A stretch of DNA of 12,325 nt from a candidate division TA06 bacterium DG_78. GTDB lineage: Bacteria > Hydrothermota > Tepidihabitantia > SM23-42. The stretch covers positions 1 to 12,325 of the forward strand of contig LJNI01000061.1 in assembly GCA_001303225.1 (NCBI GenBank), in the 5' to 3' direction. Under the pieces are notes generated by a model, which did no database searches, was not told the DNA's origin, and was given only the letters and a program-made list of their open reading frames with translations. The position numbers were made by a program, and so were the translations under genes. This document shows, piece after piece, positions 3,354-12,325 of this stretch (position 1 is its first letter; each line of letters begins with the position of its first letter).

Positions 3354-3397
3354 CAGTATTTTGATATTTTGGTTTTGACATTACTCTGTATCCTAAT

Positions 3398-3413
3398 ATC
3401 TGTGTAATCTGTG
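3398..3413. repeat. Two 9-bp-spaced ATCTGTG units in the operon spacer
   Basis: ATCTGTG occurs at 3398-3404 and 3407-3413 (unit ATCTGTGTA/ATCTGTGTT) in the only sizeable gap of the minus-strand operon (3354-3416). The same spacer carries TTTTGACATT, which resembles the ATTTGAC units at 28-41. No terminator or promoter is evident in this spacer. Confidence 0.5.
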
Positions 3414-8144: not shown

Positions 8145-9257
8145 ATGATTACACTCCTGTTGGCATCAATGCTCATTGGATATATCTACGAAGATGCTGA
8201 TAGCCTCATTGTATATAATGATAGCCTCATTATCTGTGGTTTACACCATTACAACATTAAAGTAACTATTGCCCAAAACAGCAAACTTACAGTAAGACCA
8301 TGGAGTGGTACAGCGGATTCAACTGGATGGCTCTATCTTGATGCTCCTCTCATCTCCATAGAAGATTCTTCGTTGATTAGCGGCTCAGGAGCTGGCTATT
8401 ATGGTGGTTCGACAAGTGATCATCCTAACGGCTATGGACCTGGTGGTGGTGGTAGTGGCACAAGTGGCGGCGGTGGAGGTGCTGGATATGGTGGTGCTGG
8501 TGGTACTGGTGGTGATGTTACACCTGGAGCCGGAGGAATCACTTACGGCGATGTATCAGATACTTTAATTGATATGGGTTCTGGCGGTGGAGCAGGCCGC
8601 TTGGGATTTGTCGATGGTGTTGGTAGTAGTGGTGGCGCCTCGGTCTTTTTACGGGGGAAAAAAATTTGTGTAGATACTTCTACTATAGAGGTTAATGGAA
8701 AGCATGGTAATGACGGAGCCCTCGAGGCTGGAGGCGGTGGTTCTGGTGGTGGTATCGCGATCTGGTCTGATAGTATCGCACTGCACAGTTCTACTATCAG
8801 CGTAGGAGGTGGAGATGGCGGTGATGCTGAATTTGGAGGCGGTGGAGGTGCTGGAGGTGGAAGAATTAAGATTTTTTATTCTGCTTCGTTCGATACATCT
8901 GAACTGACTGTTTTTAGACAGGGTGGTGCTCCAGGTACAGGCTTTTATGGAAACCCTGAACCCGGTGCGATTGGTTCTCTCTATATCGGACCAGTACTCG
9001 GTGTCACAGAAATTGCACAGACCCCGTATGTGAAATTTTTGATCCAGCCTACTGTAGTGAGAAAAACCATGACCGTAATAATTGACAATCCACCACACAC
9101 AGTGCGGTTATATGATGTCTCAGGAAGGATTGTACACGTTATTGCAATAGTGAATACCATAGAATACATCGACTTGAGCGATCTACAACAAGGAATTTAC
9201 TTTGTGCAATTGAGTGGAGAACGTAGTCCTACCATTAAAATTATTCTACTCAAATAA
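8145..9257 (+). CDS. Secreted Gly-rich surface protein with type IX-like C-terminal sorting tail
   Basis: A 370-residue protein. The first ~14 residues (MITLLLASMLIGY) are a short hydrophobic export signal that oddly lacks N-terminal Lys/Arg. Residues 20-80 have a beta-strand-rich pattern (NSKLTVRPWSG, APLISIEDSSLISGSG). Two Gly-rich blocks follow (about 79-165 and 190-245). The second alternates Gly runs with strands such as GGGIAIWSDSIALHSSTISV and GGRIKIFY. This is the layout of Gly-rich parallel-beta surface proteins in which strands separate glycine loops. The tail (about 295-370) resembles the Por secretion/sorting domain: VRLYDVSGRIV, then DLSDLQQGIYFVQL and a basic-hydrophobic end (TIKIILLK). 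Export and attachment or release by a type IX-like system is inferred; no T9SS component is in the window. An in-frame TAG at 8127-8129 excludes a longer start. The function and ligand are unknown. Confidence 0.85.
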   Translation: MITLLLASMLIGYIYEDADSLIVYNDSLIICGLHHYNIKVTIAQNSKLTVRPWSGTADSTGWLYLDAPLISIEDSSLISGSGAGYYGGSTSDHPNGYGPGGGGSGTSGGGGGAGYGGAGGTGGDVTPGAGGITYGDVSDTLIDMGSGGGAGRLGFVDGVGSSGGASVFLRGKKICVDTSTIEVNGKHGNDGALEAGGGGSGGGIAIWSDSIALHSSTISVGGGDGGDAEFGGGGGAGGGRIKIFYSASFDTSELTVFRQGGAPGTGFYGNPEPGAIGSLYIGPVLGVTEIAQTPYVKFLIQPTVVRKTMTVIIDNPPHTVRLYDVSGRIVHVIAIVNTIEYIDLSDLQQGIYFVQLSGERSPTIKIILLK

Positions 9258-9310
9258 GATTTTTGATGCTGACGATCAGGTGTGCAAAGTGTAAGGCAAA
9301 AATCTTTCGC

Positions 9311-9356
9311 TATTTTAGGGTATAGGAATTTCAAATAATTCCTATACCCTAAAATA
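9311..9356. repeat. Perfect 20-bp inverted repeat, 6-nt loop
   Basis: The arm at 9311-9330 (TATTTTAGGGTATAGGAATT) is exactly the reverse complement of 9337-9356; the loop is TCAAAT. The stem carries A/T-rich ends, so it could also stop transcription of the Gly-rich gene in either direction. There is no U-tract after the stem beyond its own A/T end. Confidence 0.9.
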
Positions 9357-9462
9357 TTAGATTCAGACAGATGAATGGAGATGCATACAGATACATATAT
9401 TCGTTAAACATATCCGTTTGAATCTGCTATGATTCGTTTGCATCAAAGTATAACGCAGTTAT
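9314..9462. mobile_element. Probable ~149-bp non-coding insertion flanked by TAT
   Basis: This segment separates the two zinc-ribbon gene halves. TAT at 9311-9313 is repeated at 9460-9462, which would be a 3-bp target duplication (or TA, 2 bp). Its left end is the 20-bp inverted repeat. Its right half holds a 5-bp hairpin (GAATC 9420-9424, GATTC 9431-9435) and three related heptamers: ATTCGTT 9399-9405, ATCCGTT 9412-9418 and ATTCGTT 9432-9438. No transposase and no convincing matching terminal inverted repeats are present, so a MITE-like or IS200/IS605-derived (subterminal-hairpin) element is only one possible reading. Confidence 0.45.
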
Positions 9463-9698
9463 ATTAAGATTGGCAAAGGGAGAATCCTGCACTGCTGGAA
9501 GGACAAAATAAAAAAAGACTTCAGCATCCATATTGGCAACAACATTACGTGTCAGTGCGGCAATATTATAGGTATTGATGAAGAAAAGTGGATAAAAATG
9601 AAACAGCATACTTTTGTATATTCGGGTACAAAAATCAAAAAGTAATTGTCTCGATATCTGTACAAATGTCAAAATAATGTAGTAGAGCTAACTACTTG

Positions 9699-9746: not shown

Positions 9747-10502
9747 ATGAAGAAACTCGGACCCGACGATATAAAAATACGAAGCTACATCTATTCTCTC
9801 ATTGATACTGCTAGAGCGAAAGCCATTTTGGACATCGGTTGCGGAGACGGCTATGATCTTATACAAATTGCGAAGCATACAACAAAGCATGTCCGTTTGG
9901 TTGGAATAGACGTGTCGGAAGAGAAAATCGAAGATGCACGTGCAGCGATAACTGATGATACTCGTTTTTCCTTTTTACTACATGATGTTACATCTGGACT
10001 TCCTTTTAAAAATGAAGGATTTAGCGTTATTTTTTCAAAAGATCTTTTAGAATGTATTACTAATAAAGGTGAATTAATCAAAGAAGTCTACCGTATTCTC
10101 TGCCCGAATGGTCAGGTAGTATTTGCCCACTGGGACTGGGATTCGCAAGTTATTGATGGTTCTGATAAAAATTTAGTGCGTAAAATAGTGCATACGTTTG
10201 GTGATTGGCAACAAAAGTGGATGTCAGGATGTGATCCATGGATGGGTAGACGTCTGTGGCGGACATTTAATAGTACAGGCCTTTTCAATGGAGAAATGTA
10301 CACTTATGTACTTACAAACACTGAATTTCGTCCGCCATATTATGGCTATGAACGCATTAAGGATTTTGAAGCATTGGTAAATAAAAATATGATAACAAAA
10401 GAAGAGTACGATACATTTTATCAAGACATCTTAAATCTATCTAAGAATAGAGAATATTTCTATGCAATAACAATGTATATTTATATAGGTAGGAAGATAT
10501 GA
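9747..10502 (+). CDS. Class I SAM-dependent methyltransferase
   Basis: This 251-residue protein has the class I methyltransferase fold in order. Motif I is ILDIGCGDG (residues 27-35, SAM-binding). The acidic residue after beta-2 is D55 in VGIDVSEEKI. Motif II is LLHDVTSGLPF (77-87), and a motif III-like stretch is VYRILCPNGQVVFAHWDWD (114-132). The C-terminal ~110 residues, with DPWMGRRLWRTF, form a substrate cap resembling the Methyltransf_11/25 group that methylates small molecules or lipids. The substrate cannot be inferred. The stop overlaps the NUDIX start as ATGA, so both are made together. No good Shine-Dalgarno site precedes the ATG; GAAG is the best nearby. The base composition of this pair is visibly more A/T-rich than the minus-strand operon, which may mean separate acquisition. 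Confidence 0.88.
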   Translation: MKKLGPDDIKIRSYIYSLIDTARAKAILDIGCGDGYDLIQIAKHTTKHVRLVGIDVSEEKIEDARAAITDDTRFSFLLHDVTSGLPFKNEGFSVIFSKDLLECITNKGELIKEVYRILCPNGQVVFAHWDWDSQVIDGSDKNLVRKIVHTFGDWQQKWMSGCDPWMGRRLWRTFNSTGLFNGEMYTYVLTNTEFRPPYYGYERIKDFEALVNKNMITKEEYDTFYQDILNLSKNREYFYAITMYIYIGRKI

Positions 10503-10960
10503 AAAATATTAGAATTTCAGCAAAGGCAGTCATTCTTGAAAATAGAAAAGTTTTAATGATAAAGAATATTGATAAAGATGGCTTTTGGTATCTTTTACCA
10601 GGTGGTGGTCAACGTCCTAAGGAAACTTTAATTCAGGCATTGAAACGCGAATGTAAAGAAGAAGCAAATATTGATATTACGGTTGGAGAATTATTGTTTA
10701 TAAGGGAGTATATTGGCGAACATCATGAGTTTCGAGAATACGACAGGGATGAGCACCAAATAGAATTCATGTTTTCTTGTAATATAGTAGGTAACAAATC
10801 ACCGCAAGAAGGTGAAACTCCCGATATCTATCAAAAGGGCGTGGAATGGCTTGAGATAACAAAAATAAATGATTATAGAATATACCCTAAAATTCTAAAA
10901 GAGATATTCACAAATATAAACACAAAAAAATTCTCGATATATTTAGGAGATATCAATTAA
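10499..10960 (+). CDS. NUDIX hydrolase
   Basis: This 153-residue protein has a complete Nudix box at residues 36-58: G36, E42, then RECKEEANI (R50, E51, E54, E55). Asn57 replaces the usual Gly, a common variant. It is preceded by YLLPGGG (31-37). NUDIX enzymes hydrolyse nucleoside diphosphates linked to another group (oxidised nucleotides, ADP-ribose, nucleotide sugars and cofactors); the exact substrate is not evident. The start ATG overlaps the methyltransferase stop, with AGGAAG in the last codons of that gene acting as the ribosome-binding site. The tight coupling suggests a shared pathway or a modify-and-clean-up pair, but which molecule is concerned is unknown. Codon use is strongly A/T-rich. 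The domain fills the whole protein, so there is no fusion. Confidence 0.9.
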   Translation: MKNIRISAKAVILENRKVLMIKNIDKDGFWYLLPGGGQRPKETLIQALKRECKEEANIDITVGELLFIREYIGEHHEFREYDRDEHQIEFMFSCNIVGNKSPQEGETPDIYQKGVEWLEITKINDYRIYPKILKEIFTNINTKKFSIYLGDIN

Positions 10961-11189: not shown

Positions 11190-12325
11190 ATGAATGATGT
11201 GCTACAACAAAGATTAGGTGATGAAGGATATAAGAAGCTCACGAGGATTGATTATCCTCAGCTTCACCAATTTATCGCGAAATATATTGAACATTGCAAT
11301 CCGGATAAAGTTTTTATCTGTACTGATGCTCCTGAAGATATCAAATACGTCCGCGATGCTGCGATCAGAAATGCTGAAGAACAACCGCTCGCAACTGAAG
11401 GTCACACAATTCATTTCGACAGCTACTATGACCAGGCTCGGGACAAAGCACATACTGTAATACTCGTTCCCAAGGGCGTTGACCTCGGTAAAACAATAAA
11501 GACCGGTGACCGCGACGAAGGACTCAAAGAAATTCAAGAGATCATGAAAGATATCATGAAAGGCAAAGAGCTCTATGTCCGCTTTTTCTGCCTCGGTCCT
11601 ACAAATTCTGAATTCTCAGTACCAGTAGTCCAGCTCACTGATTCTGCCTATGTTGCCCATAGCGAGGATATACTCTACCGTCAGGGATTCGAGGAGTTCG
11701 TGAGACAGGGTAAAAAGGCACGCTTTTTCAAAATCGTACACTCAGCTGGTGAACTCGATGAACGTAACACCAGCAAAAATCTCGATAAACGTCGCATCTA
11801 TATTGACCTCGAAGAAAATATTGTCTACAGTGCAAACACCCAATACGGTGGTAATACGATCGGTCTGAAAAAATTATCGATGCGTCTCGCTATCAATCGA
11901 GGTTCGAAAGAAGGCTGGTTAACTGAACACATGCTCGTTATGGGAGTCCATGGTCCAAAGGGCCGAGTCACTTACTTCACTGGTGCATTTCCTTCATTAT
12001 GCGGAAAAACATCTACTTCTATGCTCGATAACGAAACAATTGTCGGTGATGATATAGCCTATCTAAGAAAAAAAGGTGGCGAGGTACGTGCAGTAAATGT
12101 GGAAAAAGGAGTTTTCGGTATTATCATGGGTATTAATTCTAAAGATGACCCGGGCATATGGAAGGCACTCCATACGCCAACAGAAATAATCTTCTCAAAT
12201 ATATTGATGACCCCTGAAAAAGGTGTGCACTGGATTGGTAAAGATGGTGATGTACCTGAAAAAGGTCACAATCATTCTGGTGAGTGGTATAAGGGTAAAA
12301 AGGATAAGGACGGAAATGAAATAAC
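11190..12325 (+). CDS. pckG: GTP-dependent phosphoenolpyruvate carboxykinase (archaeal-like), 3' end cut off by window
   Basis: The first 378 codons are open to the window edge; the family is usually about 600 residues, so the C-terminal third or more is missing. The enzyme interconverts oxaloacetate + GTP and PEP + CO2 + GDP in gluconeogenesis or anaplerosis. Motifs seen are QYGGNTIGLKKLSMR (about 218-232, substrate/metal region), the P-loop FPSLCGKTST (about 267-276; usual bacterial form FPSACGKTNL) and ETIVGDDIAYLRK (about 282-294, kinase 2-like with the metal-binding Asp pair), then VNVEKGVFGI. The P-loop and ETIVGDDIAYL wording is closer, as I recall it, to thermococcal/archaeal PEPCKs than to typical bacterial ones. 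GAGGAGG (11175-11181), 8 nt ahead of the ATG, is the best Shine-Dalgarno site in the window. The gene is unrelated in function to its left neighbours. Confidence 0.93.
   Translation, partial: MNDVLQQRLGDEGYKKLTRIDYPQLHQFIAKYIEHCNPDKVFICTDAPEDIKYVRDAAIRNAEEQPLATEGHTIHFDSYYDQARDKAHTVILVPKGVDLGKTIKTGDRDEGLKEIQEIMKDIMKGKELYVRFFCLGPTNSEFSVPVVQLTDSAYVAHSEDILYRQGFEEFVRQGKKARFFKIVHSAGELDERNTSKNLDKRRIYIDLEENIVYSANTQYGGNTIGLKKLSMRLAINRGSKEGWLTEHMLVMGVHGPKGRVTYFTGAFPSLCGKTSTSMLDNETIVGDDIAYLRKKGGEVRAVNVEKGVFGIIMGINSKDDPGIWKALHTPTEIIFSNILMTPEKGVHWIGKDGDVPEKGHNHSGEWYKGKKDKDGNEI

Follow-up and report, generated by a model that had tools for sequence, protein, structure and literature searches.

A dispersed hairpin repeat has very probably inserted into a conserved small zinc-ribbon-like gene of a candidate division TA06 bacterium

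Double-hairpin elements and other mitochondrial hairpin repeats are mobile hairpin DNA, and BIMEs are mosaics of palindromic modules that lie between genes. Short palindromic mobile repeats that can lie inside genes are an established kind of sequence (PMC2229807, PMC10969869). Among them, the Rickettsia palindromic elements measure approximately 105 to 150 bp, are palindromic, and are located inside protein genes, to which they are fused in frame (PMC2229807, PMC10969869). MITEs are non-coding, A+T-rich, and shorter than 200 bp (PMC2229807). REPIN and REP sequences, with their RAYTs, are short, hairpin-forming, extragenic inverted units that are dispersed and non-autonomous (PMC3116915). REPs carry a GTAG or CGTC tag.

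The locus described here lies in a stretch of 12,325 nucleotides of the candidate division TA06 bacterium DG_78 (contig LJNI01000061.1), an uncultured member of the WOR-3/Stahlbacteria group; the stretch is referred to as the window. In it, a small gene is split by 149 bp of repeat-derived DNA (Table 1). We consider it very likely that a non-coding interspersed hairpin element inserted into this conserved gene and broke it.

Table 1. Features of the split gene, the insert, and the neighboring genes, in window positions
Feature	Position	Strand	Remarks
Upstream neighbor, glycine-rich protein with Por_Secre_tail sorting domain	8145..9257	+	similar gene in 7/8 syntenic loci
N-terminal part, zinc-ribbon-like gene	9266..9313	+	16 codons, CxxC; matched by 26/29 homologues
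Insert	9311..9459 (equally 9314-9462)	.	149 bp; absent from 8/8 syntenic orthologues
Hairpin A	9311..9356	.	perfect 46-bp palindrome, 20-bp arms, 6-nt loop
Dispersed repeat (FFRR)	9360..9444	.	four 13-bp units, two direct and two inverted
Hairpin B	9449..9463	.	6-bp stem, 3-nt loop; right arm enters the gene's TAT ATT
C-terminal part, same zinc-ribbon-like gene	9463..9645	+	codons 17-76, CxCG, stop TAA; matched by 29/29 homologues
Downstream neighbor, SAM methyltransferase	9747..10502	+	orthologue after whole small gene in L042
Phosphoenolpyruvate carboxykinase (GTP type), cut by window end	11190..12325	+	syntenic anchor in 8/8 loci

Translation from the ATG at 9266 passes the tyrosine codon TAT at 9311-9313, runs on for 3 further codons to an in-frame TAG at 9323-9325 (MLTIRCAKCKAKIFRYFRV, then stop), and so ends after 19 residues. 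The C-terminal part is read in a different frame, which closes at the TAA at 9643-9645, and no ATG, GTG, or TTG occurs between the preceding in-frame stop and its first residue, Ile17. The coordinates and frames of the two parts, and the lack of a start codon for the second, had been predicted originally and hold on rechecking the sequence. The 48 nt of the first part and the 183 nt of the second together make 76 codons and a stop. Of the single clean excision that had been proposed, the restored 76-codon frame stands, while its exact point has an uncertainty of 3 nt (9311-9459 or 9314-9462), as TAT, with which the palindrome also ends, is found at either junction. The original prediction was silent on the palindromic build of the insert and on its membership of a repeat family, both of which were found here.

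A large protein collection was searched with the C-terminal part only (61 residues from 9460), which yielded 29 homologous proteins of 64-80 residues. When these were compared with the window by tblastn, every one matched the C-terminal half and all except P0013, P0027, and P0028 matched the N-terminal half, on the same strand and in order; because homologues match both parts in order, 9266-9313 and 9463-9645 are read as one split gene. The C-terminal alignment starts exactly at the Tyr codon in 25 of the 29, and the N-terminal alignments overrun this codon by at least 3 residues into the insert, where the matches are poor. Homologues thus cross the junction, which had been named as support for the split, and the pattern named as refutation, matches confined to one half, is not borne out. 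Tyr16 is invariant in an alignment of 24 of the 29 homologues (A1), and by inspection all invariant residues of this alignment (CxxC, Y16, C27, CxCG, and others) are present in the two halves. P0001 is identical to the window over residues 1-16 and 85% identical over the C-terminal half. Judged from these alignments, the two halves are evidently one conserved small gene that has been split.

The window genes were compared with 14 loci, 8 of them syntenic and 6 matching the small gene only, and the nearest genomes compared belong to the same family as the window genome. In each of the 8 syntenic loci the small gene is whole (74-77 codons) and has the phosphoenolpyruvate carboxykinase gene downstream of it. 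Seven of the 8 also share the gene for the glycine-rich secreted protein and further upstream genes, the remaining locus (L046) beginning at the small gene, and in L042 a methyltransferase gene stands between the small gene and the phosphoenolpyruvate carboxykinase gene, as in the window. Aligning the locus to its relatives, as had been suggested, gave an empty site: the insert was found in none of the 8 syntenic loci, and in none do the two halves belong to different genes. The whole orthologues and the repeat-derived nature of the insert bear out the proposal that a conserved small gene was interrupted by an insertion. A TAA flagged in the gene of genome G014 proved to be that gene's own stop. 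A NUDIX gene is located at 10499-10960 of the window, between the methyltransferase and phosphoenolpyruvate carboxykinase genes; the corresponding gap in L042, approximately 260 bp, is too short for it.

Within the insert, the direct units of the repeat (GATNCANACNGAT) occupy 9360-9372 and 9380-9392 and the reverse-complement units 9412-9424 and 9432-9444, with a spacing of 20 nt inside each pair and a loop of 19 nt. The insert with its flanks (9300-9475) folds far better than shuffled sequences (z -7.3), and its G+C content is 30%, compared with 39% for the window. No Rfam family matched the window or 16 repeat loci at gathering scores, and a tRNA scan returned no tRNA. The modules that make up this mosaic insert are also found apart from one another. 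No identical insert was found elsewhere, and the ends of the inserted unit consequently rest on one insertion.

In being such a mosaic, the insert is similar to BIMEs, from which it differs in sequence, in host group, and in flanking hairpins that vary by copy across its family. It shares size, palindromic build, and a position inside a protein gene with the Rickettsia palindromic elements; unlike those, which are described as fused in frame, it brings the TAG stop and is, at 149 bp, not divisible by three. Its length, base composition, and non-coding nature recall MITEs, but no whole-length terminal inverted repeats were seen and there is no target duplication beyond the ambiguous 3-nt TAT, which is the only sequence common to both junctions and itself belongs to the palindrome. 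The unit of two direct and two inverted 13-mers sets it apart from REPIN sequences, as does the absence from 9311-9462 of the GTAG and CGTC tags described for REPs, or of their complements. In addition, no repeat unit (at most 1 mismatch) was found within approximately 1.5 kb on each side of any of the three Y1_Tnp genes found in the same genome, and a link of the repeat to Y1 transposases was rejected on this ground. The likeness to double-hairpin elements, which are mitochondrial, is one of description. In the literature searched, we found no description of this repeat family, of its construction from four units whose variable positions mismatch, or of its mirrored flanks.

The genome also carries diverged pieces of the repeat at other places. 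The best other matches there cover 54 bp (at 81%) and 38 bp (at 87%), and no exact word longer than 16 bases is common to the insert and 16 loci of this genome. A two-unit pattern had 10 matches in the genome, two of which are halves of one copy. Across the phylum, 20 genomes out of 147 carry the exact pattern; 19 belong to the window's order (17 of 23 genomes of its family, 2 of 4 of the order's second family) and 1 lies beyond it. The same pattern read backwards occurs in none of the 147. With looser spacing, the pattern is found in 21 of 41 relatives. Counting overlaps of at least 15 nt, 23 of the 31 repeat copies examined are clear of open frames of at least 100 residues, frames being taken as called and not as verified genes; the other 8 overlap one, and the extragenic habit of the repeat is not absolute. 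Behind a thiolase gene, the repeat, judged by eye, stands in 6 of 20 readable orthologous gaps and is absent from 14, some of which hold quite different repeats and three of which comprise only 11-14 bases. This pattern of gain and loss fits an element that comes and goes. In the same gap, unrelated repeat-like stretches, for example of the TAAATACCTAAATGCC type, are seen in different species (L219-L240), and the gap looks like a landing spot for repeats. By eye, further repeat-like intergenic stretches are present at 3388-3413 and 15-50 of the window (ATCTGTGTAATCTGTG type and TTTGAAATTTGAAATTTGACATTTGACATT type).

The competing explanation that fares best is that palindrome A and the repeat arrived in two separate insertions, in either order, which we regard as rather unlikely. 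In its favor, genome G014 contains four palindromes with the exact core that, over the stretches shown, have no repeat unit beside them (two lie next to a repeat-like stretch of another kind), and most of the repeat copies listed carry other flanking hairpins. Against it, two loci from two other genera, L143 (G001) and L145 (G014), show the same succession of a palindrome, three bases, and then the first unit: an imperfect relative of hairpin A precedes two direct units, as in the window, and neither locus has the inverted pair. With at most 2 mismatches, the arm of palindrome A matched 8 times across 5 of the 41 genomes, the window's own two arms included, and a control pattern matched twice; a second arm and neighboring units accompany the matches in L143 and L145 only. 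The lone arm matches (G011, G021, and G014:C383) may be due to chance, given the two control matches. We infer that the palindrome and the repeat modules probably arrived together as one unit. In L145, the relative of palindrome A and the two units lie, by eye, immediately in front of an ATG that has a ribosome-binding-type site, and in L155 another relative, again by eye, directly follows an apparent tRNA 3' end.

An assembly artefact, in which unrelated contig pieces were joined or a repeat was misplaced, seems very unlikely to us. The genome is a draft metagenome assembly of 173 contigs, 79.5% complete, and a repeat family is involved; however, relatives show synteny for the genes to the left and to the right, the gap breaks the gene with codon precision, and the genome has no better other matches to the insert than the two diverged stretches and the 16-base word given above.

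Still less credible is programmed bypass, which was offered originally as an expressed gene with unusual decoding. Ribosomes would leave UAU at 9311-9313, skip the hairpins, and land on UAU at 9460-9462 to give a 76-residue protein. Translational bypass is also known from Magnusiomyces mitochondria. In T4 gene 60, it involves matched codons, a stop directly after the take-off codon, and a take-off stem-loop (PMC5009743). The window likewise has matched TAT codons at both junctions and a hairpin that starts at the take-off codon, a series of hairpins could bridge most of the gap, and conserved residues are still present in both halves. The matched codon is, however, explained by a palindrome that ends in TAT, three sense codons precede the stop that in T4 follows take-off directly, and the gap is three times the 50 nt of T4. 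Moreover, the 23 of 31 repeat copies outside long open frames and the lack of the insert in all 8 syntenic relatives argue against a decoding signal, and we found no positive evidence for one. Reinitiation at the C-terminal half can be dismissed, as it offers no ATG, GTG, or TTG.

If a single element did interrupt the gene, it would have entered either just before or just after codon 16. Either a trans-acting enzyme or foldback during replication or repair could have moved it. The allele would probably be null, given the 19-residue peptide and the lack of a usual start for the C-terminal part. The insertion may be fairly recent, with the invariant residues of the family all still there by inspection. 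Between the C-terminal half and five relatives, non-synonymous differences amount to 0.16-0.24 per site, compared with 0.13-0.20 in other pairs of like silent divergence and 0.26 in two pairs of lower silent divergence, silent sites being saturated. These figures suggest no clear decay, with a slight excess possible, and would fit a recent insertion but also a gene still in use; the recent date originally proposed is thus plausible, on a slender basis. A copy inside a conserved gene with a known empty site reveals where the repeat unit ends, which is difficult to judge for copies lying between genes. Repeats of this kind can put small genes out of action, and gene callers then overlook them.

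The hairpins that flank the repeat were compared across 39 four-unit copies. Perfect stems of at least 6 bp were present in 46 of 77 flanks (the 30 nt adjoining the repeat), compared with 5 of 76 control stretches located 40 nt further out and a mean of 5.4 of 77 flanks (maximum 11) over 100 dinucleotide shuffles; the copies and flanks are partly the same site in related genomes and are not independent. Of the 46 stems, 28 lie exactly two bases from the repeat and 43 at most three. Their sequences vary from copy to copy, and some recur.

Three gene ends were examined for the source of these stems. The loci compared are related, and the P values given here are therefore too small. At the end of the thiolase gene, loci that carry the repeat have stems of 9, 9, 8, 7, 8, and 5 bp, and loci that lack it have stems of 3-6 bp (6 versus 14 loci, P 0.0011, or 0.0009 including one locus with an unreadable gap). 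One fragment locus was left out and, in the recount, the locus with the unreadable gap, leaving 20. The outer arm is the conserved His-Ile-Phe coding end, whose bases are not identical in relatives. Similarly, at the end of a Cys/Met-metabolism enzyme gene, stems are 12, 12, 3, 12, and 8 bp with the repeat, three of these hairpins being of identical sequence, and 2-5 bp without it (5 versus 17 loci, the two lowest of 24 being left out; P 0.007). The codons of the outer arm are also found, slightly altered, in relatives that lack the repeat, whereas the inner arm occurs only with the repeat; in L257, the inner arm mirrors that locus's own, different codons. At the end of an NYN-domain gene, no stem difference was found (7 loci with and 12 without the repeat, P 0.21; four paralogue-like loci and one locus cut by its contig end were left out), and in the window's own genome the hairpin lies within the coding end itself; this site lends no support to an inverted copy. 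At the latter two sites, presence of the repeat was scored by a lax criterion of at least 2 units with at most 2 mismatches.

At two of the three gene ends, then, the outer arm lies in the conserved coding end, and the inner arm, seen only with the repeat, resembles that gene's own end copied in inverted orientation. The simplest reading of the flank stems is inverted copying of neighboring DNA, the alternative being selection for hairpins beside the repeat. It is possible, and we propose it only tentatively, that this is a mobile hairpin family whose insertion copies adjacent host DNA in inverted orientation and so builds its own flanking hairpins. If true, inverted copying would point to a foldback mode of insertion. 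No inverted copying is seen at the window copy, whose left palindrome does not reproduce the split gene. We know of no described bacterial repeat that inserts by inverted copying of its neighbors, and a literature search on this mode of insertion found no matching paper.

The same 39 distinct copies were used to examine pairing inside the repeat, whose inverted doublet, like that of REPIN sequences, is able to form a hairpin, though its variable positions mismatch when the arms are nested. At the three variable positions of the inner nested arms, 5, 3, and 6 of the 39 copies match (shuffle means 16.4, 11.3, and 16.5), and at those of the outer arms 10, 10, and 11 (shuffle means 18.2, 13.7, and 18.4), the middle outer position being within 1.5 sd of the shuffles. 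With variable positions that mismatch more than shuffles, the idea of a hairpin kept by pairing was rejected. Crossed pairing is at best weakly better than nested pairing. The mismatches above chance in the nested arms give the impression that a bubble at every third base is favored.

The small protein itself matched no Pfam or NCBIfam family above cut-off. Weak matches were to Zn_ribbon_RPAB4 (E 0.021, below cut-off), to phrog_5988 as the best PHROGs match (E 0.0085, of unknown function), and to a cytochrome c chain among PDB sequences (E 0.021). No second copy of the gene was found in the window's own assembly (79.5% complete). The gene is present in 20 of 41 genomes, including this one. A scan of named genomes found 165 relatives, and the best 80 of these, from which the 14 compared loci were taken, include WOR-3/Stahlbacteria, Dehalococcoidia, Thermoplasmata, and Methanosarcinales. 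The family may have spread horizontally. In alignment A1 and the best 80 of the 165 loci, its members are 58-78% identical to P0001 in bacteria and archaea alike, and two genomes carry two loci apiece (L049 and L050, and L097 and L106).
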